From a virus, in the IMG/VR virus record IMGVR_UViG_3300009103_000919, positions 1 to 45,701 of that record: a stretch of DNA of 45,701 bases. One strand, 5' to 3'. Below the pieces are notes generated by a model, which did no database searches, had not been told where the DNA came from, and worked only from the letters and a program-made list of their open reading frames with translations. Shown here piece after piece: positions 660 to 41,985 of this stretch (position 1 is the first letter of the stretch; each line of letters opens with the position of its first letter). Made by a program: the position numbers and the translations under genes.

Positions 660-2201
660 ATGGAATTACATTTTGACAGTGATGGTCGTTCAAAGTTAAT
701 AGACGGCATCACTAAGATATCTAGGGCGGTAAAGAGCACATTGGGTCCAATGGGTAACACAGTATTGATCGAGTCACCCAATCACACGCATGGCATAACG
801 GTAACCAAGGACGGGGTAACTGTAGCTCGTTCTATAGAGTTGGATGATCCGGTTGAGAGTTTGGCTGTACGGATGATGAAGCAGGCTGCTGATCGGACTG
901 CGACATTGGCGGGTGATGGGACTACTACCTCTATTGTTTTGACTGAGGCATTGGTTCTCAGCGGGATGGAGAAGGAGATCACCCCTGAGGTTTTACGGGA
1001 GTTGAAGTCGGTAACTGAGCAGATCTGTTCTGATCTATCGGGTGAGGCATTGGATTGTGAGGGTGATAGGTTACACCACGTTGCTAGTATCTCATCTAAC
1101 AACGACCCTAATCTTGGCTCGATCATATCCTCTGTATACAACGAGGTGGGCAGTGACGGTGTTGTCACCATAGAGAACTCATTGGACTCGAGTACTTACT
1201 TTGAGACCACTTATGGCATGCGTATGGACCGGGGTTACACCTCACCGTTGTTCATCAACAACCACAAGCGAGACGAGTGCATCATGGAGGACGTTCATGT
1301 ATTGGTATGTGACGCTGAGATAAGTAACATCTTACAGATTGAGAACATATTAAAGCCAATAATAAATGGGGGTAAGAGGTTATTGATCATAGCTCCTTGC
1401 TCGACGAGCCTGACCAACACTTTAGCTGCCAATGTCCTAAAGAACTCATTGAGGCTATGCGCTGTTCCTCCTCCCTCCTTTGGGTACAAGCAGCATGAGC
1501 TGATGGGTGACATTGCTCACAGTGTTGGTGCAACCTATTTCTCTGAGAAGACCGGGGACGACCTATCGCTCATCTCTTTTGATGACTTGGGTCATGCTGC
1601 CAAGGTGATAGTTGGTCGTGACACCACTGTCATTGTAAAGGGTGATGACGCTCCGGACACTTCTCAGAGGGTCTCCGAGCTGTGGGCGGCCCATGCCAAT
1701 GAGACAAAGAAGGCAGACAAGGACTTTATAGCTCAACGGATAGCGTCCTTGTCCGGTGGTATCGGAGTAATCTATGTTGGTGGTGACACTGACCTAGAGC
1801 AGAAGGAGCTGTATGACCGGGTGGACGATGCGGTGTGTGCTGTTCGTTCAGCACTGTTGGAGGGTATACTTCCCGGTGGTGGTCTCTCTTTATACAACCA
1901 ACACAAGATATATTCAAAGAAAGAGACTGACAAAAAATCGCGGCGAATCGCTTACGCGATATTAAGTGATGCGCTAAAGGCCCCACTTCGGCAGATACTC
2001 ACCAACGCAGGTATTGACCCGGACAAGATCTATCACTCCAAGGTAAGGGAGGGTGTAGGCTATGACGTGAAGGGTGAGGACTATGGTGACATGATCGAGA
2101 TGGGAATAATTGATCCGTTGAAGGTGACCAAGGCTGCACTACAGAACGCGGTGTCTGTTGCTATAACCATCCTGAGTACAAATGTAATTATAACCAAATG
2201 A
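660..2201 (+). CDS. groEL: Phage GroEL-type chaperonin (Cpn60)
   Basis: This is an ATP-driven protein-folding cage subunit of 513 aa; host GroEL is about 545 aa. All three Cpn60 regions are present. The N-terminal equatorial segment has STLGPMGNTV, TKDGVTVA (Asp51) and the nucleotide motif AGDGTTTS (Asp86). The middle has apical-domain strands (RMDRGYTSPLFIN). The C-terminal half has DRVDDA (Asp390, equivalent to the catalytic Asp398 of E. coli) and EGILPGGG. It ends in VIITK without the Gly-Gly-Met tail of bacterial GroEL. Divergence is high, which argues for a phage lineage and not a recent host copy. It overlaps groES by ATGA and shares its promoter. Likely clients are capsid, tail or giant ejection proteins (inference). 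Confidence 0.93.
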   Translation: MELHFDSDGRSKLIDGITKISRAVKSTLGPMGNTVLIESPNHTHGITVTKDGVTVARSIELDDPVESLAVRMMKQAADRTATLAGDGTTTSIVLTEALVLSGMEKEITPEVLRELKSVTEQICSDLSGEALDCEGDRLHHVASISSNNDPNLGSIISSVYNEVGSDGVVTIENSLDSSTYFETTYGMRMDRGYTSPLFINNHKRDECIMEDVHVLVCDAEISNILQIENILKPIINGGKRLLIIAPCSTSLTNTLAANVLKNSLRLCAVPPPSFGYKQHELMGDIAHSVGATYFSEKTGDDLSLISFDDLGHAAKVIVGRDTTVIVKGDDAPDTSQRVSELWAAHANETKKADKDFIAQRIASLSGGIGVIYVGGDTDLEQKELYDRVDDAVCAVRSALLEGILPGGGLSLYNQHKIYSKKETDKKSRRIAYAILSDALKAPLRQILTNAGIDPDKIYHSKVREGVGYDVKGEDYGDMIEMGIIDPLKVTKAALQNAVSVAITILSTNVIITK

Positions 2202-2455
2202 GAGCAATCGGTAAGCACATACTCATAAAGCCTGTACAGGCAGAGGCTAAAACAAAATCAGGTATATTATTGTCGGCTGACGACACTGAGCAGCTTCGCT
2301 ACAAGAGAGGGGTTGTTGTGGTGGAGGGCTCGGAGGTCTCAGCTATAAAGAAGGGCGATGAGATATACTACGACAAGAGATCGGGTCACTCCCTGATCAT
2401 AGGTGACGACACCTACGTTGTCATTGTCGAGAGGGATGTCGTTGCTGTCTTATAA
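2198..2455 (+). CDS. groES: Phage GroES-type co-chaperonin (Cpn10)
   Basis: The 85-aa product has the GroES layout. An N-terminal strand (GKHILIKPV) is followed by a mobile-loop region (AKTKSGILLSADD, where GILL sits at the GroEL-binding IVL position). Then come VVVVEGSEV, AIKKGDEIYY and a terminal DDTYVVIVERDVVAVL that closes the barrel. It should cap the cage made by the adjacent GroEL. The start overlaps the groEL stop (ATGA), giving translational coupling. Its last 35 bases overlap the 3' end of the convergent minus-strand gene at 2421-2852. Confidence 0.9.
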   Translation: MRAIGKHILIKPVQAEAKTKSGILLSADDTEQLRYKRGVVVVEGSEVSAIKKGDEIYYDKRSGHSLIIGDDTYVVIVERDVVAVL

Positions 2456-5119: not shown

Positions 5120-5547
5120 CTTTGTTGGATGCGGTAAGCGGAATGGATGATGTTCACTTCAACATGAAGGATGTCATCTATATTGTCACCTTAGTGATAA
5201 GTGTTCTTGGGGGGTGGTTTACGATGAAGGAGAAGATAGCCAAGCTAAAGCATAGCCTAGAAGTGATAGACAAGCACATAGACTCTTGTCAAGCAGACGC
5301 TAAAGAGGAGAGCTTGACTGCAAAGCATAGCAGAACAGGGATGAGAAAGCAGTTTCAGGAAGAAATGAAAGCACAAAGAGAGTTTATGAACAACAGGATA
5401 GACATTGTAAAGCAAGACCTTAAAGAGCATAACACGAAAAATGAAGATGCATTTAAGGCACTTAACGACCAAATGACGGCTGTCAAAACTGACACAGCTT
5501 TAATTAAAGGAATGGTTGAAACTCTTGTTCAAAAAAATAATAGCTAA
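5116..5547 (+). CDS. Membrane-anchored coiled-coil protein (holin- or spanin-like)
   Basis: The 143-aa product has one transmembrane segment near residues 20-38 (DVIYIVTLVISVLGGWF). About 100 residues of charged heptad-rich coiled coil follow (KLKHSLEVIDKHIDS through KGMVETLVQK). This topology, next to an endolysin, suits an inner-membrane lysis protein. It overlaps its neighbours at both ends (ATGA upstream, TAATG downstream). It could also be a membrane-bound virion assembly factor. Confidence 0.6.
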   Translation: MTLLDAVSGMDDVHFNMKDVIYIVTLVISVLGGWFTMKEKIAKLKHSLEVIDKHIDSCQADAKEESLTAKHSRTGMRKQFQEEMKAQREFMNNRIDIVKQDLKEHNTKNEDAFKALNDQMTAVKTDTALIKGMVETLVQKNNS

Positions 5548-6041
5548 TGAGCGACTGCTCGGAGAAATTAAATATAATGAAGATATCAGCCCATGTATCA
5601 TACAAGGAGGCCACCTATAGTCAGACGGCCACTAGGAACGATATAGACAACGAGCCAAACGCAGAGCAGCTTATGGCGATAAAGTTACTTGCCGACAGGG
5701 TCTTTGAACCCTTAAGGGATTGGGTTGGTGGCCCGGTAAAGATAAACAGTTGCTTCAGGAGTGAAGAGCTGAACAAGCGTATTGGGGGAGCGTCTAGCTC
5801 TCAGCACATGGCTAATAACGGAGCAGCGATGGACCTTGATGATTCTTACGGATACAAGACCAATGCTCAGATGTTCTACTACATCAAAGACAACATTACT
5901 TTTGACCAAATGATTTGGGAGTTTGGAGATGACAGAAACCCTGATTGGGTTCATGTCTCCTACAAGGACGAGGGGAACAGGGGTCAGATATTAAAAGCCT
6001 GCAAGGTAGACGGCAGGACGAAATATTTAACTTGGGAGTAG
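5547..6041 (+). CDS. Peptidase M15-family endolysin
   Basis: The 164-aa product is a zinc-dependent D-Ala peptidase that would cleave peptidoglycan crosslinks at lysis. The N-terminal half has ISAHVSYKEATYSQTA and INSCFRSEELNKRIGG. The zinc site is visible as SSQHMANNGAAMDLD (His87, Asp96 or Asp98) and PDWVHVSY (His136), with Glu in MIWEFG before the last His. The His-to-Asp spacing is slightly longer than in the common SQHxxGxAxD form. The start shown gives TAATG coupling; an ATG at 5577 (MKISAHV) has an A-rich leader and may be the true start. It lies between TM proteins in a lysis cassette. Confidence 0.87.
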   Translation: MSDCSEKLNIMKISAHVSYKEATYSQTATRNDIDNEPNAEQLMAIKLLADRVFEPLRDWVGGPVKINSCFRSEELNKRIGGASSSQHMANNGAAMDLDDSYGYKTNAQMFYYIKDNITFDQMIWEFGDDRNPDWVHVSYKDEGNRGQILKACKVDGRTKYLTWE

Positions 6042-7151: not shown

Positions 7152-8532
7152 GATAAGCGACACATCCTCGTATCCACAAGCGGTAGTAACAGGCTCTGAT
7201 TATCTGATCGGGACTGATGTAGAAGATTCAAACAAGACAAAGACCTTCACGGTAGATAGTTTAGCGACTTACATGTTGGGAAGTTCAGGGTCGGCGTATG
7301 TTGTCCCTGTTTATACTTCGGCGACAACATTGAGTGATTCTATAATTTCTCAGGACGCTGCTGTTGGTACAAGGATAACAATTGCGGGAGCATTAACGGT
7401 GAATTCTGATGTTAGTTTAGGAACCTTGTTGACCTCTAATGAGGGAACGCTGACTCTTGACTTGGGTAGAGGTGCGGGTGCTCAGACCGTTAGGATTGGT
7501 GTTGATGATACAGATACTTTAGAGATTGAGGCTACTACAGCTCTTCAGGGTCCAATCAAGGACTCGACCAACACGTTGGGTGCTGCGGGAGAATCCTTGG
7601 TGTCAGACGCTAATGGGTTTGTTACTTGGCAGACTCCTTCAGGATCAGGCACGGTGACAAGTATTGATGTAGCGGGCGGGACAACAGGCATGACCACCAC
7701 AGGTGGCCCAATAACTACTACGGGAACGATAACTCTTGGGGGCACACTAGTTATAGCAAATGGAGGGACGGGAGCTGTTAACGCTCAGGGGGCAATAAAT
7801 GCTATTTCTCAAGTTGGTTCAGCTACTAATGAGCACATACTAACCAAAGATACCGCCACGGGTAACGCCTTATGGAAGGCTGCTCCCGCATCAGGAGGGA
7901 CAGTAACTTCAATTGCAACATCGGGGACTGTTAACGGACTGACCTTGACAGGTGGCCCAATAACTACCACGGGAACGATAACTCTTGGGGGAACATTAGC
8001 AATTAATGATGGGGATTGGTCGGGCTCTCAATTAAGTATAGCAAATGGAGGGACGGGAGCTGTTAATGCTCAGAATGCAATAGACGCACTTACTGACGCA
8101 GTATCAGCCTCAACGGGTCAGGTTTTGACTAGGAATGGTGCGGGAAGAGCATTATGGGCTACCCCATACTTTAAAGACACTGTTACAATAACCTCCACAT
8201 CTCCTGCATCTGCTGTTTATTCAGATACAATTATCCCGGGACTAACTTACACAATAACTAAGGATGGCGATTATGTTATATATGCCATGATAACATGTAC
8301 AATAGCATCATCAGATGCCAAGCCTTTTTCCCTTATGGTAGCAAAGAATGGCGTTGTTATTGCTAACTCAGAAACGGGGGACTTCAATAAGAAGAATGAG
8401 GCTCAAAGCCTTCAACTAACATTTCCTGTTGACGGGCTTGTTGCGTCTGATGTAATAGCTATTTTTGCTAACAGCGATGGGGTTTCCGCGACAGTAACTC
8501 TAGGGAGGATTCTTCTTCAGTCGTGGGTGTAG
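7144..8532 (+). CDS. Tail fibre protein with repeated TGGPITTTGTITLGG modules
   Basis: In the 462-aa product, the N-terminus (MAKISDTSSYPQAVVTGSDYL, SNKTKTFTVDSLATYML) resembles virion-anchoring ends of phage fibres. The middle holds two copies of a module with GTVTSI, TGGPITTTGTITLGGTL and LSIANGGTGAVNAQ. This is a triple-beta-helix style repeat common in fibres. The C-terminal ~130 residues (VTITSTSPASAVYSDT through ILLQSWV) form a separate jelly-roll-like head that is the likely receptor-binding part. The last 10 bases overlap the next gene. Confidence 0.75.
   Translation: MAKISDTSSYPQAVVTGSDYLIGTDVEDSNKTKTFTVDSLATYMLGSSGSAYVVPVYTSATTLSDSIISQDAAVGTRITIAGALTVNSDVSLGTLLTSNEGTLTLDLGRGAGAQTVRIGVDDTDTLEIEATTALQGPIKDSTNTLGAAGESLVSDANGFVTWQTPSGSGTVTSIDVAGGTTGMTTTGGPITTTGTITLGGTLVIANGGTGAVNAQGAINAISQVGSATNEHILTKDTATGNALWKAAPASGGTVTSIATSGTVNGLTLTGGPITTTGTITLGGTLAINDGDWSGSQLSIANGGTGAVNAQNAIDALTDAVSASTGQVLTRNGAGRALWATPYFKDTVTITSTSPASAVYSDTIIPGLTYTITKDGDYVIYAMITCTIASSDAKPFSLMVAKNGVVIANSETGDFNKKNEAQSLQLTFPVDGLVASDVIAIFANSDGVSATVTLGRILLQSWV
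7699..8078 (+). repeat. Two direct repeats inside the tail-fibre gene
   Basis: Nearly identical stretches (AGGTGGCCCAATAACTAC... and ATAGCAAATGGAGGGACGGG...) occur around 7699-7789 and 7948-8078. The second copy carries an extra in-frame segment between the two conserved blocks. DNA identity is high enough to allow recombination that adds or removes a module. Confidence 0.75.
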
Positions 8533-8861
8533 ATTGTACTAGATGTATTAACAGTGCTTGTTGTTCTCTAGTTGTTGAGGTTGATGAGGATGAGTACAAA
8601 TATTTTGAAAGCATAAATTTACACCATACCTTTGAGAGGTACACTGATAAATTTATTTCTGAGTTTCCAAGATTTAAGGATAAGCGTGACCAAATATCCT
8701 TGCTACATAAGGAGCTTCACGCTTATTTAAAGAAGGGGGATGATGGTCTCTGTGTGTTGTTGGATAGAGAAACAATGCTTTGCAGCATATATAACAATAG
8801 ACCTAAGGTGTGCGTAGATTACACAGTAGATAGGTGTAGTAAGATTAGAAGTCTTGAGTGA
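8523..8861 (+). CDS. YkgJ-like cysteine-cluster protein
   Basis: The 112-aa product has an N-terminal cluster C-x2-C-x4-CC (Cys5, Cys8, Cys13, Cys14). A later group of cysteines includes the family-like MLCSIYNNRPKVC. This arrangement matches the zinc/iron-chelating domain family typified by YkgJ, whose biochemical role is poorly known. The start is a GTG overlapping the fibre gene by 10 bases; no in-frame ATG lies near. A metal-binding role in virion assembly or redox protection is only a guess. Confidence 0.7.
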   Translation: MGVDCTRCINSACCSLVVEVDEDEYKYFESINLHHTFERYTDKFISEFPRFKDKRDQISLLHKELHAYLKKGDDGLCVLLDRETMLCSIYNNRPKVCVDYTVDRCSKIRSLE

Positions 8862-9084
8862 TATAAGGAAGATAGCGGTTGGCCCCGATTATAAGTCAGG
8901 GGCGATGCACTACATTGTAGGGCAGAAGATTCTAAACGACAGCTATGTAATCCATTTAATAAAGCACAACGAGAGGAGGGACTCTTTTGAGATATGGATA
9001 GAGAGGGCTGACGAGGTTGTCCTATGGAAGGAGTTTACTTCTACCATTCCGATATCTATTGAATATAATATTCACTTTCAATGA
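8854..9084 (+). CDS. Conserved hypothetical phage protein (76 aa)
   Basis: The product begins MSDIRKIAVGPDYKSGAMHY and ends ISIEYNIHFQ. It has a pattern of short strands (YVIHLIKHN, SFEIWIERADEVVLWKEF) suggesting a small beta fold. The best start is a TTG within the 3' end of the preceding gene, an 8-base overlap. From memory it recurs beside the double-GroES-like gene in Bacteroidota phages; its function is unknown. Confidence 0.6.
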   Translation: MSDIRKIAVGPDYKSGAMHYIVGQKILNDSYVIHLIKHNERRDSFEIWIERADEVVLWKEFTSTIPISIEYNIHFQ

Positions 9085-9644
9085 GGTCACCGCATTATTT
9101 CATAGCCAAGCCTGTGGGGGGAAAGCGATATGCTAACACAAAGTCTATCGGTGGTATCGACCTTATAGTGAGCACCTCTGAGGAGGACCATAAGTTCTCT
9201 AACCGGGAGGCTGAGGTGATAGAGCCACCGATAGGCTATGAGGGTCCAATAAAAAAGGGGGATATCCTTTTGGTCCATCACAACGTATTTAAGTATTACA
9301 ATGACATGAAGGGAAGAAGGCAAAGCGGGAAGAGCTTCTTCAAGGACGACCTGTTCTTCATAGAGCCCGATCAGTTCTTTATGCATAAGCGTAATGGTCA
9401 ATGGAGGGCGCATGACAGGTATTGTTTTGTGGAGCCAATACCCCCTAGGGATTGTTACATTATGAAGCCAATGGGTGAGGAGCCCCTAATGGGCAGGATG
9501 CTGTACCCTAGTGAGTACCTCAGGTCGATGGGGTTAAAGAGGGGTGACGTTGTAGGGTTTGACCCGGAGGTGAAATATGAATTTAATGTAGATGGTAAGA
9601 AGATGTACCGGCTGTATGATCATCAGATAACATTGTCTATATGA
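9081..9644 (+). CDS. Tandem GroES-like protein (two Cpn10-fold domains)
   Basis: The 187-aa product appears to contain two GroES-type barrels. Domain 1 (about 1-112) runs HYFIAKPVGG, NTKSIGGIDLIVSTSEED, GPIKKGDILLVHH and DDLFFIEPDQFFM. It lines up with this phage's own GroES (ILIKPV, TKSGILLSADD, AIKKGDEIYY, DDTYVVIVERD). Domain 2 (about 113-187) runs RYCFVEPIPP, PLMGRMLYP, GLKRGDVVGFDP and KKMYRLYDHQITL, with a shorter mobile-loop region. It is translationally coupled (ATGA) to both neighbours and lies just before the terminase genes. It is either a specialised co-chaperonin for capsid or terminase folding, or a virion protein that has reused the fold. The resemblance is visible but needs structural confirmation. 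Confidence 0.65.
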   Translation: MRSPHYFIAKPVGGKRYANTKSIGGIDLIVSTSEEDHKFSNREAEVIEPPIGYEGPIKKGDILLVHHNVFKYYNDMKGRRQSGKSFFKDDLFFIEPDQFFMHKRNGQWRAHDRYCFVEPIPPRDCYIMKPMGEEPLMGRMLYPSEYLRSMGLKRGDVVGFDPEVKYEFNVDGKKMYRLYDHQITLSI

Positions 9645-9925
9645 ATAACAAGGCGATAAAATTAAAGATAATAGCTGCAGGAGAGAAGGCAGTAAAGGAG
9701 CTGATAAAGGTAGCTCAGGAAGATATTATCAAGCCCGATCCTGACGATGAGTTGGCCGCAGACAGGTTGAAGAATGCGGCGGCGACCAAGAAGCTCGCTA
9801 TATTTGATGCCTTTGAGATACTCAGCAGGATAGAGCAGGAGCGAGAAAGTATTTTGATGTCAGAGAGGGGGGCATCTAGAACAGACACTAATGTAGGTTT
9901 TGCAGAAAGAAGGTCAAGAAAATAG
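9641..9925 (+). CDS. Candidate small terminase subunit (94 aa)
   Basis: The helical, charged product (KLKIIAAGEKAVKELIKVAQE, LAADRLKNAAATKKLAIFDAFEILSRI) directly precedes and overlaps the large terminase gene. In this location a helical protein under 100 aa most often is the DNA-recognition subunit TerS. The call is made mainly by position; no clear helix-turn-helix stands out. Confidence 0.5.
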   Translation: MNNKAIKLKIIAAGEKAVKELIKVAQEDIIKPDPDDELAADRLKNAAATKKLAIFDAFEILSRIEQERESILMSERGASRTDTNVGFAERRSRK

Positions 9926-12149
9926 ATTGTATACCGTATTAGAGGGCTATGTGCCATCTAGTGTTCTTAAGACTAAGAACAGGAGCAGGACTTGGCTTTA
10001 TGGATACAACGAGAAATATGACCTTGTTGTAATATCAAAGACCGGACAGATTGGAGAGGTTGTAAAGATATACGGTCTTGTTGTTGGACTACCAAAAACC
10101 TCCCATCAGTGGGAGGGAAAAAAGCAGGACTATTGGACAAGGCAGGATCTTCCTGAGCCTCTACAAAAAATACACTCTATATTCCAATGGAACGAGATGC
10201 CTGCCGCATTTAAGGACAAGTGGGTTGACTATATAGAGGAGGAGTTTGATCGTAGAGAGTTTGGTTATTGGTTTAAGAATAATGGTAAGCCAACTTACAT
10301 AACCGGGGCTCACTATATGTACTTGCAATGGTCTAGTATCGACATTGGCTACCCCGACTTCAGGGAGGCCAATAGGGTGTTCTACATATTTTGGGAGGCA
10401 TGTAAGGCTGACAATCGCTGCTTTGGGTTAGATTACCTTAAGATCAGGCGTTCCGGATTCTCGTTTATGTCATCGTCTGAGTGTGTAAATATTGGGACGT
10501 TAGCCAAAGATTCGCGCATTGGTATTTTATCAAAAACAGGACCTGACGCAAAGAAGATGTTCACCAACAAGGTTGTCCCTATTGCTAACAGGCTTCCATT
10601 CTTCTTCAAGCCTATACAGGACGGCATGGATAAGCCGAAGACTGAGTTGTCTTTTAGGGTTCCTGCATCTAAGATCACAAAAAGGAACATGTACGATATT
10701 GATGAGGAGCAGATGGAGGGGTTGGATACCACTATAGATTGGAAGAACACAGATGATAACTCATATGATGGTGAGAAGCTATTGTTCTTGGCTCACGATG
10801 AGAGTGGGAAGTGGCTTAAGCCGAACAACATCCTAAATAATTGGAGAGTTACTAAGACCTGTCTTCGCTTGGGCAGCAAGATAATTGGAAAGTGCATGAT
10901 GGGATCTACCTGTAATGCATTAGATAAGGGTGGGGGTGCCTTCAAGAAGTTATTTGAAAGCTCTGATGTGTTGAATAGGAACGCAAATAGTCAGACTAAG
11001 AGTGGTCTATACTCCTTGTTTATACCTATGGAGTGGAACATGGAGGGGTTTATAGATCGTTATGGCATGCCTGTGTTTAGAAGGCCGGAGAAGCCTGTTG
11101 TTGGTATAGATGGAGAGATGATAACCAACGGGGCTATTGACTATTGGGAGGCTGAGGTTGAGTCATTAAAGGATGATCCTGATGCGTTGAATGAATTTTA
11201 CAGGCAGTTTCCAAGGAGTGAGTCACATGCTTTCAGGGACGAGAGTAAGGCATCATTGTTTAACCTGACAAAGATATATCAGCAGATAGACTACAATGAC
11301 TCGATGATCAAAGAGCACTTCTTAACTAAGGGGAGCTTTCATTGGCAGGACGGTCAGAAGGACACCAAGGTTATATTTAGTCCTGACACAAGGGGTAGGT
11401 TTTTGGTGAGTTGGACCCCACCGAAGAACATGCAGAACAACGTCCTTGCTCAAAGGGGGGTCAAGCGTCCGGGCAATGAACACGTAGGTGCTTTTGGATG
11501 TGACACCTATGATATATCCGGAACGGTAGGGGGTGGTGGATCAAAGGGTGCGCTGCATGGGCTGACCAAGTACAACATGGATGACGCACCTAGTAATGAG
11601 TTCTTCTTGGAGTATGTGGCTAGACCGCAGACAGCGGAGATATTTTTTGAGGACGTACTGATGGCGTGTATTTTTTATGGGATGCCCATCCTTGTGGAGA
11701 ACAATAAGCCGAGGCTACTGTACCATTTTAAGAATAGGGGCTACAGACATTTTTGTTTGAACAGGCCCGATAAGCATTTCAACAAGTTATCTAGAACAGA
11801 GAAGGAGTTGGGTGGTATTCCTAATACATCGGAGGACGTTAAGCAGGCTCATGCTGCAGCGATAGAGTCTTATGTTGAGAAGCATATTGGTCTTGACTTC
11901 TCGGGGGCATACCGGGAGCCGGATGTGATGGGGTCGATGCCATTTACAAAGACGCTTATTGATTGGGCTAAGTTCGATATAAACAACAGGACCATGCATG
12001 ATGCGTCAATAAGTTCAGGTTTAGCTATCATGGCTACTCAGAAGCACCTGTATGTGCCTGAAAAAAAAGAATCAAAAATAAGCATTAACTTTGCTAGGTA
12101 CAGCAATAAGGGTAGAACGAGTGAATTAATTAGAAATGAAAGACGTTAA
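9900..12149 (+). CDS. terL: Large terminase subunit (DNA-packaging ATPase/nuclease)
   Basis: The product (up to 749 aa) pumps DNA into the prohead and cuts it. From memory it matches the Bacteroidota-phage TerL family: VLEGYVPSS and KTKNRSRTWLYGYN, then YITGAHYMYLQWSSIDIGYPDFREANR, then KIRRSGFSFMSSSECVN where the Walker A loop should be (it lacks the usual GKS/T), and TELSFRVPASKITKRN. The C-terminal RNase H-like nuclease contributes acidic residues in GAFGCDTYDISG and a late Asp in MHDASISSGLA. Two TTG starts are possible, at 9900 and at 9927; the latter follows the TerS stop directly and may be the true one. It contains one copy of the CTCCCATCAGTGGGAG hairpin at 10094-10116. Confidence 0.85.
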   Translation: MQKEGQENRLYTVLEGYVPSSVLKTKNRSRTWLYGYNEKYDLVVISKTGQIGEVVKIYGLVVGLPKTSHQWEGKKQDYWTRQDLPEPLQKIHSIFQWNEMPAAFKDKWVDYIEEEFDRREFGYWFKNNGKPTYITGAHYMYLQWSSIDIGYPDFREANRVFYIFWEACKADNRCFGLDYLKIRRSGFSFMSSSECVNIGTLAKDSRIGILSKTGPDAKKMFTNKVVPIANRLPFFFKPIQDGMDKPKTELSFRVPASKITKRNMYDIDEEQMEGLDTTIDWKNTDDNSYDGEKLLFLAHDESGKWLKPNNILNNWRVTKTCLRLGSKIIGKCMMGSTCNALDKGGGAFKKLFESSDVLNRNANSQTKSGLYSLFIPMEWNMEGFIDRYGMPVFRRPEKPVVGIDGEMITNGAIDYWEAEVESLKDDPDALNEFYRQFPRSESHAFRDESKASLFNLTKIYQQIDYNDSMIKEHFLTKGSFHWQDGQKDTKVIFSPDTRGRFLVSWTPPKNMQNNVLAQRGVKRPGNEHVGAFGCDTYDISGTVGGGGSKGALHGLTKYNMDDAPSNEFFLEYVARPQTAEIFFEDVLMACIFYGMPILVENNKPRLLYHFKNRGYRHFCLNRPDKHFNKLSRTEKELGGIPNTSEDVKQAHAAAIESYVEKHIGLDFSGAYREPDVMGSMPFTKTLIDWAKFDINNRTMHDASISSGLAIMATQKHLYVPEKKESKISINFARYSNKGRTSELIRNERR
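10094..10116 (+). repeat. Hairpin copy inside terL (CTCCCATCAGTGGGAG)
   Basis: A perfect 7-bp stem CCTCCCA/TGGGAGG with loop TCAG lies within terL, where it encodes part of PKTSHQWEGK. It is identical over 23 bases to the terminator hairpin at 40532-40554. It lacks a T tract on either side. Confidence 0.6.
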
Positions 12150-14568
12150 AATAAGCATTACATCTGCCGGATTTCCAAGCCAATTTGTCTCTGATTCAGA
12201 GAAGGCTACTGATGAGTTTGGCCTTCAGATAGGACAGGCTATACAGTATGAGTGGTTCAGGAGAGATGGCAATCAGTGTCGATACTATAATCAATGGAGA
12301 GACTTTCACAGACTGAGACTATATGCGAGAGGAGAACAGTCGATAGCTAAATACAAGAACGAGCTTGCTATTGATGGAGACCTGTCTTACTTAAATCTTG
12401 ATTGGACCCCTGTACCGATCATCCCTAAGTTTGTAGATATTGTTGTCAACGGAATGTCTGACAGGTTGTTTAAGGCTAAGGCTTTCTCTCAGGATGCAAT
12501 GTCACAGGCTAAGAGAAGCAAGTATCAGGACATGATTGAAGGTCAAATGGTTGCAAAGGACATGCTCTCGACAATAGAGCAGAACACCGGTCTTCAGATG
12601 TTTGTGACATCCCCTGAGGAGTTGCCTCAAAACGATGATGAGCTTGCCTTGTATATGCAGCTTAAATATAAGCCCGCCATTGAGATCGCAGAGGAGGAGG
12701 CTATAGATACCTTGTTTGAGGAGAACCACTACCTAGATCTTAGAAAGCGTTTTGATTATGATCTAGCTGTTTTAGGTATTGCCGTTGGCAAGCATGAGTT
12801 CTTGCCCGGGGCGGGAGTAAAGGTAGGCTATGTTGACCCTGCAAATGTGGTATATAGTTATACCGAAGACCCTCACTTTAAAGATTGTTTTTATTGGGGA
12901 GAGATAAAGACTATTCCAATTACTGAGACAAGAAAGATAGACCCTAGCCTAACCAATGAGGACTTAGAGAACATATCTAAATACAGTCAGTCTTGGTATG
13001 ATTACTTCAATGTAGCTCAATATTATGATAATGATATTTTTTATAGGGACACCTGTACTCTTATGTACTTCAACTACAAGACCACAAAAAAGTTTGTCTA
13101 CAAGAAGAAGATACTTGAGGGGGGTGGTAGCCGAGTAGTAGAGAAGGATGATCAGTTTAATCCTCCTGTTGAGATGATGGAGGATGGAAGGTTTGAGAAG
13201 ATCGAGAAGACCATTGATGTTTGGTATGAGGGCGTTATGGTTATGGGTACGAATATTCTACTGAAATGGGAGTTAGCGGAGAATATGGTAAGGCCGAAAT
13301 CAGCAAGTCAACATGCAATCCCTAATTATGTGGCTGTAGCCCCAAGGATGTATAAGGGAGCTATTGAGTCTATAACAAGGAGGATGATTCCTTTTGCTGA
13401 TTTAATTCAGATGACTCACTTAAAGTTGCAGCAGGTAATATCTCGAATTGTTCCTGATGGCGTATTCATTGATGCTGATGGCATCAACGAGGTGGATCTT
13501 GGGACAGGCAATGCTTATAGTCCGGAAGACGCATTAAGGCTCTACTTCCAAACGGGTAGTGTAATAGGTAGGAGCTACACTCAGGATGGCGACTTTAATC
13601 AGGGGCGAGTTCCGATCAAGGAGCTTAATAGCAACTCGGGAGCAGCTAAGACTCAGATGCTTATTACCAACTACAACCACTACCTTGACATGATCAGGAC
13701 AGTTACCGGCCTAGGTCCAAGGGACGCTCAGGTTCCTGATCCTAACTCATTGGTTGGCCTTCAGAAGTTGGCAGCACTCAACTCTAATACGGCAACCCGT
13801 CACATATTGGATGGAAGCCTGTATATCTATAGGACATTATCTGAGGCTCTATCCTACAGGATAGCAGACATATTGGAGTATGCTGACTTTAAGGATGACT
13901 TTGCCAATAAGATTGGCAAGTATAACGTAAGTATACTGACAGATATATCTGATCTGTATATCTACGACTTTGGTATATTCATCGAGGTCTCCCCGGATGA
14001 GGAGGAGAAGGCACAGCTAGAAGCCAACATTCAGATGGCATTATCTAAGAACGACATCAATCTTGAGGACGCTATTGACATAAGGGAGATCAAGAACATT
14101 AAGTTGGCTAATCAGCTCTTAAAGATGAAGCGGGTAAGGAAGCAGGAGAAGGAGCAACAGGCTCAGATGCAGATGCAAGCAATGCAGAGTCAACAGCAGC
14201 TTCAGTCTCAGAAAATTGCTTCTGAAACTGCAGTTGCTAAAATCCAAGCCGAGACTCAATCTAAGATACAGATCAAGCAGGCAGAGATTGCTTTCGAGAT
14301 AGAGAAGATGTCTAGTGAAGCAGAGCTTAAGCGGAGCTTGATGCAGGTTGAGTTTGACTATAACATGCAGCTATCAGGTATGCAGGCTGAATCCTTATCT
14401 GAAAGAGAGAAGTCTAGGGAGGATGCTAAGGCTAAGAGAATTAGTCAGCAGAACACTGAGCAATCTAATCTTATTAATCAGAGGAAGAACAATCTTCCTC
14501 CACAGATTTTTGAATCAAACGAAGATAGCCTAGACGGTTTTGATTTAGCTGAATTTTCACCTAGATAA
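12136..14568 (+). CDS. Portal protein
   Basis: The 810-aa product would form the dodecameric DNA gate at the capsid vertex. Position after terL (14-base overlap) and before scaffold and capsid, the size, and segments such as YEWFRRDGNQCRYYNQWRDF, PIIPKFVDIVVNGMSDRLF and YVAVAPRMYKGAIESITRRM support this. The last ~130 residues are an unusually long Gln/Met-rich coiled coil (QMQMQAMQSQQQLQSQK and following), followed by an acidic end. In other portals such extensions line the capsid interior or contact ejection proteins. Confidence 0.8.
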   Translation: MKDVKISITSAGFPSQFVSDSEKATDEFGLQIGQAIQYEWFRRDGNQCRYYNQWRDFHRLRLYARGEQSIAKYKNELAIDGDLSYLNLDWTPVPIIPKFVDIVVNGMSDRLFKAKAFSQDAMSQAKRSKYQDMIEGQMVAKDMLSTIEQNTGLQMFVTSPEELPQNDDELALYMQLKYKPAIEIAEEEAIDTLFEENHYLDLRKRFDYDLAVLGIAVGKHEFLPGAGVKVGYVDPANVVYSYTEDPHFKDCFYWGEIKTIPITETRKIDPSLTNEDLENISKYSQSWYDYFNVAQYYDNDIFYRDTCTLMYFNYKTTKKFVYKKKILEGGGSRVVEKDDQFNPPVEMMEDGRFEKIEKTIDVWYEGVMVMGTNILLKWELAENMVRPKSASQHAIPNYVAVAPRMYKGAIESITRRMIPFADLIQMTHLKLQQVISRIVPDGVFIDADGINEVDLGTGNAYSPEDALRLYFQTGSVIGRSYTQDGDFNQGRVPIKELNSNSGAAKTQMLITNYNHYLDMIRTVTGLGPRDAQVPDPNSLVGLQKLAALNSNTATRHILDGSLYIYRTLSEALSYRIADILEYADFKDDFANKIGKYNVSILTDISDLYIYDFGIFIEVSPDEEEKAQLEANIQMALSKNDINLEDAIDIREIKNIKLANQLLKMKRVRKQEKEQQAQMQMQAMQSQQQLQSQKIASETAVAKIQAETQSKIQIKQAEIAFEIEKMSSEAELKRSLMQVEFDYNMQLSGMQAESLSEREKSREDAKAKRISQQNTEQSNLINQRKNNLPPQIFESNEDSLDGFDLAEFSPR

Positions 14569-14610: not shown

Positions 14611-15705
14611 ATGGAAATTAAAGTAAGAGAAGTAGGTGGTTCGGAAGAGAAATCCGTACAGGAAGTAGAGAAGGAATTGCTAGATAAGCATGAAGAATCT
14701 ATAGATGAGACACCTAAAGAAGACGAGGTCAAAGAGGCCGTTCAAGAGACAAAGGCTGAAGAGCCTGTGGGGATGACCGATAATGACGTTCTTTCATTTA
14801 TTAAAGACAGATACGATAGGGAGATAGGCTCTATGGACGAGCTCCTAGCCGAAAGAGAAGCTAAAGAAGAGCTTCCTGATGATGTGGCTTCCTATCTAAA
14901 GTATAAAAAAGAGACAGGTCGAGGGATCAATGACTATGTTAGGCTACATAGGGACTTTGATTCTATGGATCCGGACTCTTTGCTAAAAGAATATTTCATG
15001 GCTACCGAGGAGGGATTAGACTCTGAGGATATAGAGGCCATGATGGATGACTTTATTTACGATGAGGATCTAGACGATGAGTCTGATGTTAAAAAAGTAA
15101 AGTTAGCCAAAAAGAAAACTATTGCTAAAGCTAAGAAGTATTTCGAAGAACAGAAGGAATCTTACGCTGCACCGCTTGAGTCAAGCCGGGGTTCTGTATC
15201 CGAGGAAGAGAAGAAGGAAATCGAAACTTATAAGCAATATATAGCAGAAGCTGAAACTCAGAAAAAGGAGGGAGAGAGAAGGAGAGAATGGTTCTCCAAA
15301 AAGACTGAAGAGTTATTTGATAGTGAATTTAAAGGTTTTGAATTTAAACTAAATGACGACAAGGTTGTGACTTTTTCTCCGGGTGACGCAGATCAGTTAA
15401 AGAAGGCCCAAGAGACACCGATGAACTTCATCAGTAAGTATCTCAACGAAGAGGGAATGATCACTGACGCTGCAGGATACCACCGAGCATTAGCGATGGC
15501 TATGAATCCTGAAAAGTTTGCCAAGTTCTTTTATGAGCAGGGCAAGTCTGAGGCGACTGAGGAGGTGATGCGTAAAACTAAAAATGTCAATATGACTGAG
15601 CGCAGAGCACCTGAGGTTACTTCTAAATCAGGGACAACTGTGAGGTCTTTATCTAACGACTCAGGTCGTGGGTTGAAGATTCGCAGTTCAAAAAACAGAA
15701 GTTAA
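14611..15705 (+). CDS. Probable capsid scaffolding protein
   Basis: The 364-aa product is very rich in Glu, Asp and Lys and largely helical. It has an acidic N-terminal third (EEKSVQEVEKELLDKHEES), a middle with DDFIYDEDLDDES, coiled coil around KEEIETYKQYIAEAE-type heptads, and a basic C-terminal tail (SGRGLKIRSSKNRS) suited to binding the capsid shell. Position between portal and major capsid is the classic scaffold slot. No protease motif is visible in it, so scaffold exit rather than self-cleavage seems likely. Confidence 0.75.
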   Translation: MEIKVREVGGSEEKSVQEVEKELLDKHEESIDETPKEDEVKEAVQETKAEEPVGMTDNDVLSFIKDRYDREIGSMDELLAEREAKEELPDDVASYLKYKKETGRGINDYVRLHRDFDSMDPDSLLKEYFMATEEGLDSEDIEAMMDDFIYDEDLDDESDVKKVKLAKKKTIAKAKKYFEEQKESYAAPLESSRGSVSEEEKKEIETYKQYIAEAETQKKEGERRREWFSKKTEELFDSEFKGFEFKLNDDKVVTFSPGDADQLKKAQETPMNFISKYLNEEGMITDAAGYHRALAMAMNPEKFAKFFYEQGKSEATEEVMRKTKNVNMTERRAPEVTSKSGTTVRSLSNDSGRGLKIRSSKNRS

Positions 15706-15726: not shown

Positions 15727-17157
15727 ATGGCAGGTTCAGTATTAGCCACACCGGGGTTCCAACTTCAGCCTAGCGCAGAGCAGGTTCCCTTGGCAACAAA
15801 CTATATTACCAACTTCGATTTCCTTAATCAGTATCTACCTGATACATACGAGAAGGAGTTTGAAAGATATGGTAATCGAACAATCTCCTCATTCTTAAGA
15901 ATGGTAGGAGCAGAAATGCCTTCCAACTCTGATCTTGTAAAATGGGCAGAGCAAGGAAGACTTCACACAAAATATGTAGACTGTACGTCAGCAGCCGCTG
16001 CTGCATCAGACACAGCTACAATCACTGTTAACGACACGTTAGTACCGGGAACAGGTAGCATCGCTATCCGAGTAGGTCAGACTATTGTTGTAACTGAGAA
16101 CGCAGGTAACGGACAGAATAAAGCTGTTGTTACCGGTGTTAATACGGCAGGAGGCACAATAGATGTTGCTTACTACGAGGCGGGGGGGCAAGCTTTTGCT
16201 GCTGCTGCTGTGTGTACTATCTTCATCTATGGTTCAGAGTTCCAAAAAGGAACTGCAGGAATGCAGGGCTCTTTGGAGGCTGACGATGATATCTTCGACA
16301 ATAAGCCGATCATCCTAAAGGATAAGTACTCTGTTAATGGTTCTGACATGGCTCAGATCGGATGGGTCGAAGTGACCACTGAGAACGGAGCTACAGGATA
16401 CCTTTGGTACTTGAAGTCTGAGCATGAGACTCGACTACGATTTGACGATTACCTAGAGACAGCAATGATTGAGGCTGTTCCTGCTGAAGTAGGATCAGGA
16501 GCAATTGCTGCTATAGGTGTTGCCGGTGTAGCCGGATCAGCAGGTTCAGAAGGAATCTTTCACGTTGTTGGTCAAAGAGGAAATGTATGGGGAGGCGGTA
16601 CTCCCGCTACTCTTGCTGAGTGGGACACCATCATTAGCCGACTTGATAACCAAGGAGCTATTGAAGAGAACGTGGTTTTCTTGGATAGAAACTTTGGTTT
16701 CGATGTTGACGATATGTTGGCAGCTCAGAACTCTTATGGTGCAGGTGGAACCTCTTATGGTCTATTTGACAACGATGAGGAGATGGCTCTTAACCTTGGA
16801 TTCTCCGGATTCCGAAGAGGTTACGACTTCTACAAGACCGATTGGAAATATCTGAATGACCCAACAATGCGAGGTGGTCTACCGACAGGTGCAGGATCAG
16901 GGCGTGTAAATGGACTATTAGTCCCTGCAGGTTCTACTACTGTGTACGATCAAATTCTTGGCAAGAACGCCAAGCGACCATTCCTTCATGTCCGGTATCG
17001 AGCTTCTCAAACTGAGGATCGAAGATACAAGACTTGGATCACAGGTTCAGCAGGTGGCGCAGCTACTAGCGACCTTGATGCAATGGAGGTCAACTTCTTG
17101 TCAGAGAGATGTGTTTGTACCATGGGTGCGAACAACTTCTTCCTCTTCCAAGAGTAA
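15727..17157 (+). CDS. Major capsid protein
   Basis: The 476-aa product has an HK97-type plan: a helical N-arm (NYITNFDFLNQYLPDTYEKEFERYG), an inserted beta/Ala-rich domain at about residues 80-165, a spine-like region and a terminal FLSERCVCTMGANNFFLFQE. I associate the last with crAss-like and flavobacterial phage capsids. The leader is A-rich. Arg codons are largely CGA/CGN, unlike the AGA/AGG bias of surrounding genes. A strong hairpin terminator follows. Confidence 0.85.
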   Translation: MAGSVLATPGFQLQPSAEQVPLATNYITNFDFLNQYLPDTYEKEFERYGNRTISSFLRMVGAEMPSNSDLVKWAEQGRLHTKYVDCTSAAAAASDTATITVNDTLVPGTGSIAIRVGQTIVVTENAGNGQNKAVVTGVNTAGGTIDVAYYEAGGQAFAAAAVCTIFIYGSEFQKGTAGMQGSLEADDDIFDNKPIILKDKYSVNGSDMAQIGWVEVTTENGATGYLWYLKSEHETRLRFDDYLETAMIEAVPAEVGSGAIAAIGVAGVAGSAGSEGIFHVVGQRGNVWGGGTPATLAEWDTIISRLDNQGAIEENVVFLDRNFGFDVDDMLAAQNSYGAGGTSYGLFDNDEEMALNLGFSGFRRGYDFYKTDWKYLNDPTMRGGLPTGAGSGRVNGLLVPAGSTTVYDQILGKNAKRPFLHVRYRASQTEDRRYKTWITGSAGGAATSDLDAMEVNFLSERCVCTMGANNFFLFQE

Positions 17158-29340: not shown

Positions 29341-32300
29341 GTGAACGAGAAAATACAGCTTTTATTTGACGCATTAAAGGACGAGTACGATCTAGGTACT
29401 ATTGAAGACTTCACCTCCTACCTTCAGGATGATAAGAAGCGTTCCCTTTTTTACGAAAAGGTCATAGCTCCAAATTATGACGTCAGTAGTATTGAGGAGT
29501 TTGAAAATGTTTATGGTTTAGGGGGCTTTGGGCTAAAAAAAAAAGATGGTACTTCTCAAGAGGTAGATACGGCTGCCTTACCACAGGAAACTATTTCATC
29601 GGCATTTGTCGAGTCAAATCAAGTTAGCCCTGTAGTCGGAGCAGGCTTTGATGAATCAATCACAACAGATCAGGGCCCATTTAGAGTAGAGGAGGTAATG
29701 TCTCCTGAGGATGTTGAGTATTTTGCTGAACAGGATCGTCTGAATAAAAAGAACAAAGCTAGAGTAAAGGGAGATCCAATCAAGACAAAGCAGAATCTTT
29801 ACCGGGAGCTCACAAAGCAGATCAACGCAAACCCACGACACAATACAGATGAGTTCAGAGAAGAGGCTTTTGATCTTTGGAATCAGATGTCTGAATTTAA
29901 GACTTCCTATAGAGAGGGGGAGGATGTAGATAAGTGGGAGCTAGGACCAACACTAGCTGATAGCTATCAAGGTTTCGAAGATTTTCTAGAGGATATGAAA
30001 AATCCTGTCACAGAGGTTCAGGCATACAACCTTAGAATGGCAGGGAGGGACACTTCTCGTCGTGGCACATTTGATATAAGAAATGCGCTCAACATGACCT
30101 ATAAACTAGATTATGCTAGGGAGAATTTAGAATACAACAAGAGAGAGAAGGAAGAGAAGAGACAGCAACTGCAGAAAGAAGAGAAGAAGAAAGAGATTGG
30201 CGAGGCTGAGAACCTAAGGTCTTGGCTTAAACTAGATCAGGATGCCCTTGAGGATTATCTAGATACCACTCCGATGCCTAGAGAATTTGAGGGCGAGATT
30301 AACCGCGATGAGTGGAAGGATAGAATGCGTCAAAAATGGAGTCAACATCAAAAGGACATAAAGTCTCAGGCTGAGTCGTTAGACAAGGAGGACGCTAGAT
30401 TTATGGACTCATACCTATCCTCTATCACGCCGGGACTTATTGGTCGTGAGGAGGAGGAGGTTGTTCCAATGCTCAATAAAGAGTACGGCAAGTATGGTTT
30501 CACATTTGAAGAGGCCGGGGTGGGTGACGCTATGATAGTTACCTCTAGCAAGGATGGGGCTGAGACATTACAGATAGACCTTGACCCATTTACAAGCGGG
30601 GAGGAGGTTCTCGAGTCATATAAATTAAAGAAGTACTTAAAGGAAAATGCTGTACATTCTGAGCCAATCGTTGAGGATGAGGACCGTATGTTTACCGAGA
30701 AGGCTTACCGAGCTCAATCATTAAGGGATAAGGCAATGATAGGGGAGGATGGAAGACCTTCTACTGTTATTTTTGAGGACGCAGGGTATGACGGAAGGAA
30801 TGTTGTATACCCAACTCTTTTCCCTAAGGACCCCAACAAATACACTCAGGACCCCGGTGATTGGATGCAGCTATCGGGTGATGCCGCATACGAAGAAGCA
30901 CTAAAAAGAGGTGAGGTCTTTTATTTTGACACACCATCTGAAGCAAGCAACTTCGCTAAGGGGTCATGGAAGTATACTGATATATCTGATGTAGAGGCCG
31001 AGAAGTTTTACAATGACAGGGGGTTGGACTATCAATCTATGCATGTGGCCTACGAGAGGTATCAAGACCTATTGGATAAGGAGGAGACCATGGTCAATCT
31101 ACTTACTAGAGGCGGTGATATTATAGAGGTTGACCCAACTGAAGGGTTCAAAACAAAATACAGGGGGATTTTAACCTACGAGAAGGATGGGGGTAAAGAG
31201 TATGCTAGGGTAAGACCTGATATACAGGAGCACTATAATTCTGTGGTCTCAGATAGAGAGGCTCTATTTGATGATTCATTTGCAAATGATTATGCTGTAA
31301 AGATTAGAGAAAAGTGGGATCAATATGCCTACGAAAAACAACAGGAGAAAGCTCAGAGCGCAGCCAATCTAAACATGATGGCTAAGTATATTAATCAGGA
31401 AACGGATAAGGAGGCTCTTGATATATTCAATACCACCTTAGATAAAGTTGACGTAGAGTCTTTAACGCCTGAGGAGATGTCCATCTACAACGAGCTCAAT
31501 GCAATTAAAGAGGAGACAGCCATAACAAAGAAGATGGCTGCTCAGGAGTATGAGAACGCAAACACCTATTTAGATTCTAGATTCAATAAGGAGCAGGTCC
31601 AAACATTCTTGGAGGGGTGGGAAGGAATATGGGCTCAGATAAGATCCGGATGGGATAGGGGTGAAGCTGCTGAAGAAATACTTGCTTTGTCATTAGGTGT
31701 GTCAGACATAACAGACCCTAAGGAGTTGTCTAGAATTGCTGCTACAATTGTTGAGGAGCAAAGGCAGGCAGAAAAAAGGGGGGTTCAAAGAACCGCTACT
31801 CTCACCGCTAGTGCTAGGAATGCCTCTGAGTTTTGGGAGACAGTTTGGGACAACCCACTTGACTACATGTTAGGTCTAGCAGGAAATAGCATGTCTCAGA
31901 TGGCTCCTTATGGTTGGAAAATTGTCGGTGCTGCTGCGGGGACAGGAGCTGCAACAGGTGCTGCATATGGAGCTTTGGGGGCAAATCCCTATACTGTTGC
32001 GGGGGGTGCTACGGTTGGTGCTAAATGGGGCATGGCTACAGGGATGGCTGCTACGTCTTATGCGATGGAGTATACGAATGCTGTATTGGATGCCGGGAAG
32101 AATCATGGCTACGACATGATGAACCCAAAGGACGTTGAGCTTGCTCTTCAGGATCAAAATGTATGGAGTGAGGGTAGAGAGATAGGTATGAAGAGGGGGA
32201 TACCAATTGGATTGGTTGACTTTTTGGGTGGTGGTTTAGCAGGCAAGATATTTAAGGTTGGCTCTGTTGCCTCGAAGGGTGCTGTTATAGGTGCTCAGGT

Positions 32301-35300
32301 TGCGGAGCGTGCAATAATTGACCCCGCATTAGAGGGTCTTGGTGAGTACCTAGCTCAGTCTGTTGCGGGGCAAGAGATAGATTGGAAGGAGATTGTAGCT
32401 GAGATGGCAGGCGGTATGGGAAGTAATAGCTCTACCATGGCTATTGAGATGCTTAATCAATTCAGGAGTAAGAGCAATGTTGAGTTGGCTAATAATCTAA
32501 CAGGCACTGAGTTCATGGCTAAGGAGAAGTCATCTGATAAGTCATTGTCTAATTGGGCCAATAGAATGCACAAGCTAGGTAAGATTGACTCTGATATGAA
32601 TCAGAGGATACAGGAGAACATTGGTGCTAGAAGGGAGGCTAGATCTTTACTTGATACAGAAGGAGTTGGCCGGGTATTGGGAGCGAAGAAGACCAAGGAG
32701 GAGACTAGAGTAATGCAGCTCCTTCAGGCTAGAGATGAGCTATCCTCTACCACAAACAGGAAAGAGGTATTCAAAGCAAAGATCAAGGCTATCAATGAGG
32801 AGTTGGCGATTATGGCTGAGACCAAGGCTATGGCTCCGGAAGACTCTATGGTTGAGTTAGCTTTAGAAGAGGGTAAGAAGGATCAGCCTGCAAGGTACTC
32901 GATAGATGGTAAGCTATATACTAAGAAGGCCTTCTTAGAAAAGGTTGAAGCGATGTCTGAGGGTAAGAGGGCTAACAAAAAGATTCAGGTTCTCAATGAT
33001 CCTGAGACAGCAAAGCAAGTAGGACTTAAAACAATAGAATTAGATGCCGTTCAAAAACAACAAACAGAGGAGGGCGTGTTACGCCCTGAAAAGGAAGAAC
33101 CCACAGAGCAAGTGGGACTGCAAGAAGTGGGACAGGTACAGCCGGAAGAAGTACAGCCGGAAGTAGAAACTTTCGAAGTAGAATCAATCAATGATTTACC
33201 TGAGAGGTATAAAGGTCAAGAGCCTGTTACTGAGGGAGAGGTCACAATTGGTAAAGGGAAGGACAAGGTTACATATAAAAGGTATACGTTTAAAAAAATT
33301 GAAGAAGCTCCCGAAGTTCAAGAAGATGTGGTTGTAGTTGACAAGGGGACCAAGGAGGATGTTAAGGCTTTCAGGGAGGGTACAATAGAAGACTCTAGGC
33401 TAGAGTCCCTGTTGGCCGGAGTTGCCGCTAGAAAGAATGAGGGCAAGAAGCTAACCAAGTTTCAGCAGGAGATGTTTGATGCCAACCAAGAAAGGGTTGA
33501 GAAGCTACAGGTTGAGTCTAAACTTCTAGGGGAGATATTTGATGTTGATACCTCAGTAGCTGTGGCCCCATACTTTGATACACAGGTTGAGACAATTGAG
33601 GACGCTAAAGATCTAAGACAGTCAGAGTCTTATCAGGCTTACCGGGCAAAGATAGATGAGGTGGCGAAAGACTTTGGTCTTGAGGTAGAGGTTCAAGAGA
33701 ATATAGGTGGCTACAAGAACGAGTCAGGCAACGAGATAGTTGAGGTCTCTAACACTGTGGTATTAAAAGGTGCAACTATTGAGCAGGCAGAAGAGTTCGC
33801 TGCAATAATGGCTGCTCTCACCCCGGACGTTCAGGAGGCATCCATAGCTGCTCAGGTGGTTGATGAGGGGTCGGCTAATCACAATGCGAATATGTATAGC
33901 GTTGTGGTTTCAGATACACAGGCCGCAGTAAATGCCCTTAAGAAGGCCGGGATCACTGACTATAGTATAAACCAAAGCACCAATGAGGTTACCTTTATTG
34001 ATGTCTTGGAATTTTCTGACTTGCAGTTGCAAGAAAAAATAGGTAATTTTATAAAAGAACTAAAGAAAGAAAACGTAAGTTATGAGCAAAAAGGATACGA
34101 AGCAGTCGATTCAAGATATGTCGGCAAGGGAGATAGGCAAGCAATTCTTAGACGAGCTAAAGGCTCAAGGCCCAAAAAAGGCAAACAAGGGCAACGTGTA
34201 CATAGTGCGCTCGACCAAGCGATAAGTAGGGATGCCTACTTTCAAGATTTATCAGTAGAAAATTATTTAACCGATGGCAAAAAAGCAGGAAACAGAATCT
34301 TCAATGTCGGGATCCCGGCAGTTAAGAAAATTGCGGACAGATATTATCAACGAGTTTTTCGGAAGCCACGAAGAGTTTTTGAAGGAACGAAAGAAATTCA
34401 AGAAGACCGGGCCAAAGAAATAGCCAAGGCATTTGAGGAGTCTAAAAGAACTATAGATGATCCGGAGGTCAAGGCTGCATACGACAAGCTTGTCGAGGAG
34501 ACTATAGAGCAGTACAAAGAACTTATTGATGCAGGATATGTTGTCGAGGTAAACAATACGGAGCCATACGACAACTCTCAGCAGATGATTGATGATCTCA
34601 GGGACAACAAAAGAATAAAGATATTCTCTACTGAGTCCGGGTTTGGTGATACAGAGATCACTGAGCAGCAGAGAAAAGATAATCCACTACTTCAAGAGAC
34701 AGAGTTTGTAGATGTTAATGGTGTTCCACTATTAGCTAATGATCTGTTCAGGGCGATTCATGACTTCTTTGGACATGCAGAGCTAGGCAATGGGTTTGGT
34801 CCTATTGGAGAGGAGAACGCTTGGAATGTTCACGTTAGAATGTTCTCTCCGTTAGCAGCCAAGGCAATGACTGCAGAGACTCGAGGTCAGAACTCTTGGG
34901 TGAATTTCTCCGGAATAAACGATGAGGTATTTAAAAAGAGAGACAAGGCTAGGGAGCTGAGGAAAAGAGGGAAGGTTGAGGAGGCTAAGAAATTAGTCAA
35001 TGAGATTTATGATGAGATATCATTTGCTGAACAAAAGGTCACTCTACTTCCTGACGAATACTCTGTACCAACAGACCTAAAAGAAGAGAAGTTACAGCCT
35101 CAGCTTGAGACTGAGGAGAAAGAGGATGTAGAGGGGGTTGCTGCAGAGAAGGAAAGGGCTATGTCTGAGATGGAGGAGGCGGGTGTCGAGCTTGCCGAGG
35201 ACCCATTCACTGTGGAGCAGGTTGCTCCGGAAGCTGAGGTGACAACTATAACTTTAGACAAAGACAATCCACTTACAAAAGATCTTGAGAGAATAGGGTT

Positions 35301-41982: not shown

Positions 41983-41985
41983 CTG

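Follow-up and report, generated by a model that had tools for sequence, protein, structure and literature searches.

A phage-encoded GroEL with single and tandem co-chaperonins in a lineage of podovirus-like phages of Bacteroidota

Work on phage chaperonins has mostly concerned systems with only the lid (gp31 of T4) or only the chamber (phage EL). Gp31 is a phage-coded lid that works with host GroEL; it is devoid of roof loops, and its client is the ~56-kDa capsid protein of T4 (PMC6318259). Phages EL, OBP and AR9 encode a GroEL, with no known co-chaperonin. Some phages carry both GroEL and GroES (PMC7185714), and both genes are annotated in the cultured or named phages Elemovirus, Cellulophaga phi38:1 (Calle), Maribacter Panino, immuto and Manatee ctfjg026; for Panino, the presence of both is also stated in its paper. 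Outside phages, chloroplasts combine a hetero-oligomeric Cpn60 chamber with a single lid (Cpn10) and a tandem lid (Cpn20).

The window analyzed here is the whole 45.7-kb stretch of the viral record IMGVR_UViG_3300009103_000919. It represents the greater part of a podovirus-like Bacteroidota phage genome; the genomes of relatives are ~60 kb long. Its plus strand encodes GroEL (660-2201), GroES (2198-2455) and a tandem (double-domain) co-chaperonin (9081-9644), whose gene lies ~6.9 kb from groEL and does not form a single operon with it. Two genes past the tandem co-chaperonin, in a conserved neighborhood, is the terminase large subunit (9900-12149). The portal protein (12136-14568) follows, then an acidic 364-aa protein whose position suggests a scaffold (14611-15705) and a 476-aa, 51.1-kDa virion protein at the position of the major capsid protein (15727-17157), all on the same strand. 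A helicase and a VRR-NUC endonuclease at 41737-43218 on the minus strand mark the start of the replication module, which is truncated by the contig end; the complete genome is probably ~15 kb longer than the window.

The same three-part arrangement is recognizable, in whole or in part, in several described phages. The Manatee Spring podovirus ctfjg026 (MW202828; complete genome, 60.9 kb) shares gene order and synteny with the window, and its GroEL, tandem protein and single GroES are 59%, 71% and 46% identical to those of the window, although its tandem protein is annotated merely as hypothetical. Elemovirus (Flavobacterium phage elemo, for example NC_055854) also encodes GroEL (gp43) and then GroES (gp44), with a second "co-chaperonin GroES" (gp30) directly before terminase. 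However, identity is 35% for GroEL and 36% for the tandem protein, and groEL-groES is on the strand opposite the structural genes. Cellulophaga phi38:1 (Callevirus) has GroEL, Cpn10 and a 194-aa co-chaperonin ahead of terminase, but Cpn10 precedes GroEL, and this GroEL is outside the window's clade. Cellulophaga phi18:3 (KC821620, Pachyviridae) encodes a single Cpn10 (gp080, 31108-31362) and a tandem one (gp096, 41458-42060), as the window does, but no GroEL. Related laboratory phages have the same gene set, which is therefore not novel in itself; as far as we found, however, neither the double lid nor the altered lid-binding groove has been described. A search of the open literature found no paper with a description of a tandem co-chaperonin from a phage as such.

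Identity and ancestry of the groEL-groES pair

The 513-aa, 55.4-kDa GroEL matches Pfam Cpn60_TCP1 (4.6e-55, residues 20-512 of 513) and the PHROG family "chaperonin groEL" (1.5e-120, residues 5-512). GroELs in the PDB align with it over residues 2-512, so that the equatorial, intermediate and apical domains are all covered. E. coli residues D52, D87 and D398 correspond in the alignment to D51, D86 and D390, and AGDGTTT is kept. The other nucleotide-site residues that were checked are conserved, except for D83 and conservative changes around positions 479-480. This full-length homology, together with the ATP-binding and catalytic residues, identifies the predicted protein as a group I chaperonin, and it is nearer to cellular group I than are the far more divergent chaperonins of EL, OBP and AR9. 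The ring-contact positions R452, E461 and E434 are too variable across the clade to distinguish a single- from a double-ring state; the number of rings, like the client and the composition of the lid, is something that we infer.

The 85-aa GroES matches Pfam Cpn10 above the cut-off (5.8e-14), and its confident AlphaFold model (pLDDT 88.9) adopts a Cpn10 fold according to Foldseek. Full-length family matches of both ORFs thus bear out the complete groEL-groES pair proposed by the sequence-only reading. The ATPase residues it listed (Asp51, AGDGTTT and Asp390) are likewise confirmed in the alignment, as is the missing GGM tail: GroEL ends in ...LSTNVIITK, and no aligned clade member has such a tail. 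The window protein is also shorter at both ends than its relatives (513 versus about 526-558 aa). The ATGA overlap at 2198-2201, which comprises the TGA stop codon of groEL and the ATG start codon of groES, is present as described, but coupling by ATGA is rejected as a conserved feature, because the two genes are spaced very differently among relatives, anywhere between -44 and roughly +2,100 bp.

Relatives of the window GroEL are encoded by at least 518 viral contigs, so the observation is not due to chance. From these contigs, 80 related groEL loci were kept for a count of gene order. In 78 of them, groES is downstream of groEL, on the same strand and within 2.1 kb; the remaining two loci are on contigs that stop too early, within 1.5 kb. 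Among INPHARED records, only 263 of 50,697 match GroEL at E<=1e-5, a tally that includes a few mislabelled records of bacterial DNA. One mislabelled entry in the phage collection is CAKLQH020000021, a contig of "Acinetobacter phage MD-2021a" that carries groSL and consists of bacterial chromosomal DNA. The pair is therefore uncommon among phages overall, but standard within the window's lineage. Its earlier portrayal as uncommon goes too far in view of the 78 related contigs and the several annotated phages that have both genes; within the lineage, it is the rule. The pair was already known, and the three-part form is a variant of a known theme.

The window GroEL is 60-68% identical to other members of its phage clade, 34-38% identical to GroELs of Bacteroidota and 35% identical to that of E. 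coli. In the GroEL tree, it is located inside a phage-only clade of 19 rows (support 100/100, stem 1.49), in which the rows derived from metagenome-assembled genomes (MAGs) are short phage-like contigs. Bacteroidota and other cellular GroELs form a separate group (support 100/98). Clustering inside a host clade does not occur: the AU test rejects a tree in which the window is constrained with Bacteroidota (p-AU 1.3e-56), as well as one that constrains the whole clade in this way (p-AU 8e-4). A recent host origin of the window GroEL is ruled out by the tree and the AU test, and the long phage history first suggested from its divergence is upheld. Where it branches at depth, with respect to the other long-branched GroELs of phages, is uncertain.

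A Bacteroidota-type -7 element precedes groEL, the protein is recognizably group I, and its best PDB match is an ancestral reconstruction of the Bacteroidetes group. These features might suggest that groEL-groES was recently captured as a host operon and is an unadapted passenger or auxiliary gene. Given the low identity to Bacteroidota relative to that within the phage clade, the long stem of this clade and the rejected constrained trees, we regard such a capture as extremely improbable. Gene order also argues against it: bacterial operons have groES before groEL, whereas the window has the reverse. The closest GTDB matches of the GroEL are short MAG contigs that resemble phage contamination. 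Ratios of dN/dS between close relatives are 0.08 for GroEL, 0.06 for GroES and 0.04 for the tandem protein, which indicates purifying selection for function on each of these genes. A separate observation concerns a GTDB species genome labelled Aliivibrio, which has nine Cpn60 matches, several of them phage-like; phage contigs were likely binned with it.

The tandem co-chaperonin

The pair is not the whole set, because the earlier reading, although correct about groEL and groES, overlooked the co-chaperonin gene at 9081-9644. Its 187-aa product, ~2 times the length of a Cpn10, matches PHROG 13932, "co-chaperonin GroES" (1.7e-19, residues 1-178). It has no Pfam match above the cut-off and no match at E<=10 among PDB sequences. 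The confident AlphaFold model, built on 56 relatives (pLDDT 84, pTM 0.78), has Chlamydomonas Cpn20 as its first-ranked PDB structure, with a full-length match to 7ekq_R/Q; Thermus Cpn10 is next, and Cpn23 ranks third. Lower matches are further Cpn10s, including GroEL-bound GroES, and gp31 is found further down. The best named match in a viral library is the phi18:3 "chaperonin cpn10".

The predicted structure shows two Cpn10 domains arranged head to tail, that is, a Cpn20-like architecture. In profile comparisons and in Pfam matches of homologues, the C-terminal half is Cpn10-like, and the N-terminal half is apparent only in the predicted structure. Homologues that pass the Pfam Cpn10 threshold include phi18:3 gp096 and phi38:1 gp089, and ORF64 of Flavobacterium phage MaF61 matches twice. 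The N-terminal domain contains a motif, GG[IV][ED][FL]I, that resembles a mobile loop, whereas the C-terminal half contains no recognizable one. The chloroplast system is like that of the window in having a chamber with single and tandem lids, but the phage second domain lacks a clear mobile loop, and the likeness is one of fold only.

The gene lies no more than 1.5 kb upstream of terminase in 93 of 93 testable loci, and its product is the most conserved of the three proteins (57-78% identity). In addition, the second mobile loop is degenerate, and GroEL is missing from 5 of the 11 contigs that carry the tandem gene, although most are fragments. These properties are suggestive of a packaging or head-assembly factor that reuses the Cpn10 fold and is not a lid. 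However, the mobile-loop-like motif is retained in the N-terminal domain, and both the tandem gene and groES are present in all 26 near-complete groEL-bearing relatives searched. In the reverse direction, GroEL is found in 6 of 7 tandem-bearing contigs of at least 46 kb. Moreover, a protein of 187 aa that matches Cpn10 twice is encoded directly before a highly divergent GroEL in MaF61 (2409-2972), which shows an independent case of a tandem lid beside a chamber. A role for the tandem protein in packaging instead of as a lid is therefore rather unlikely. Only 1 of 297 Bacteroidota genomes has the tandem gene, and the same MAG also has phage groEL contigs. The arrangement in MaF61 also represents a parallel in a jumbo phage.

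Lid contacts and the proposed chaperonin

The mobile-loop tripeptide of E. coli GroES touches L234, L237 and V264 of GroEL (PMC3514286). All 24 clade members compared have L234E, V263A, V264A and A260N in this groove according to the alignment, and retain L237. Cellular GroELs have conserved hydrophobic residues at the groove positions that are changed in the phage clade; such a hydrophobic groove is typical of the family but does not define the fold. The window GroEL additionally has Y203L and L259T, and its own groove residues include E228, T252, N253, A256 and A257. N265, which is needed for GroES binding, is invariant in the clade. Elemovirus GroEL does not share these groove changes as a set.

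On the side of the lid, 84 phage GroES sequences were aligned, of which one row duplicates the window. Their mobile loop retains its hydrophobic residues, mostly as SG[LI]LLS, and is two residues longer than that of Bacteroidota; the window sequence is KSGILLSADD. The roof loop is 9 aa long in 82 of the 84 phage sequences, versus 13 aa in most Bacteroidota and 18 aa in E. coli. The window GroES thus lacks a full-length roof hairpin to close the dome, as does its functional analogue gp31, which means that the hairpin does not define a co-chaperonin. Because both faces of the lid contact are altered, the sequences suggest that the phage GroEL is privately paired with the phage lids. Alternatively, L234E, which introduces a charge at a hydrophobic position, could mean that lid binding is weakened.

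We favor, with reasonable confidence, a self-contained phage chaperonin that has its own set of lids and probably serves head assembly. The phage GroEL would form the ATP-driven chamber, and GroES and the tandem co-chaperonin would form the lid, either as two interchangeable lids or as one mixed ring. Given the groove change across the clade, the chamber is probably private: it would accept the lids of the phage, and host GroES would serve it poorly. With so short a roof loop, the lid would be expected to leave a more open dome, as in gp31, which would suit a bulky client such as the candidate capsid protein. The sequence-only reading proposed a machine tuned to large virion proteins, which would be speculative; the GroEL cage is too small for proteins of 170 and 423 kDa, which excludes the giant 1,552-aa and 3,730-aa proteins of the window as clients, so the 51-kDa capsid candidate is the plausible one. 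In the relative phi38:1, mass spectrometry has detected GroEL both in infected cells and together with free virions (PMC13288928). Points against a private chaperonin are that host GroEL is always present, such that a phage system may not be needed, and that groEL and the tandem gene are apart and not in one operon.

Perhaps both phage lids act mainly on host GroEL, in the manner of gp31, and the phage GroEL has a separate activity, for example prevention of aggregation without lid cycling, as in phage EL. Phage phi18:3 has both lids and no GroEL, the changes L234E, V263A and V264A remove hydrophobic lid contacts, and the EL chaperonin showed no interaction with E. coli GroES (PMC7185714). Unlike the lidless chaperonins of the EL type, however, the window's chaperonin is accompanied by two encoded co-chaperonins. 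In nearly all relatives, GroES and GroEL are linked, N265 is invariant, and the mobile-loop hydrophobic residues are retained in the phage GroES proteins. We regard such a takeover of host GroEL as improbable.

Returning to the self-contained chaperonin, a lid built of tandem subunits has an even domain count, whereas the GroEL ring is seven-fold. Three tandem subunits and one single subunit would supply seven domains, and the constant co-occurrence of single and tandem lids, even in phi18:3, would fit a hypothetical 3 x 2 + 1 ring. In chloroplasts, where this mismatch also arises, mixed Cpn10/Cpn20 rings with seven domains have been proposed as the favored native form (PMC5780408). We offer a mixed lid of this composition, on a phage GroEL with a co-evolved groove, as a tentative idea that may well be wrong. 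If true, the lid would represent, in a virus, an independently evolved equivalent of the Cpn10/Cpn20 lid of chloroplasts, and it would exclude host GroES. The lineage of the window, with a chamber and two kinds of lid, includes hundreds of environmental phages as well as the cultured phi38:1 (Cellulophaga) and Elemovirus (Flavobacterium). It raises the testable questions of why a phage would spend ~2.4 kb on a folding chamber of its own and how a ring of seven-fold symmetry is closed by a tandem lid whose domains are even in number.

Promoter elements and other features of the window

The Bacteroidota-type promoter that the sequence-only reading placed before groEL is correct in part. A -7 element, TATATTTG, is present at 630-637 on the plus strand, 22 nucleotides upstream of the groEL ATG, but no TTTG -33 element is found ahead of it. 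TAnnTTTG is not enriched across the whole window (40 occurrences versus 34 expected). Just upstream of gene starts, it occurs 9 times versus 1.0 expected, a number reached in 0 of 2000 circular shifts. Of 79 related groEL genes, 73 also have it close to their start, compared with 10% of random windows. The placement of this sequence motif supports a Bacteroidota host and suggests expression by host-type RNA polymerase. The nine gene starts with TAnnTTTG 1-42 nucleotides upstream amount to a map of Bacteroidota-type phage promoters in the window.

Several other features were observed. Positions 1-130 are G-rich, with G runs (GCGCGCGCC), and contrast with the AT-rich intergenic DNA downstream; this segment may be an artefact of assembly at the end of the contig. 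Upstream of terminase, 8523-8861 encodes a CxxCxxCC protein with a putative zinc- or iron-chelating domain. The ORF that encodes the 3,730-aa protein (29341-40533) has no Pfam match, and the structural modules of Elemovirus and phi38:1 likewise close with a very large protein. A glucosaminidase-domain protein at 43208-43857 on the minus strand has an out-of-frame overlap of ~100 nucleotides with another ORF, and a second candidate for a lysis gene encodes an M15 peptidase (5547-6041).
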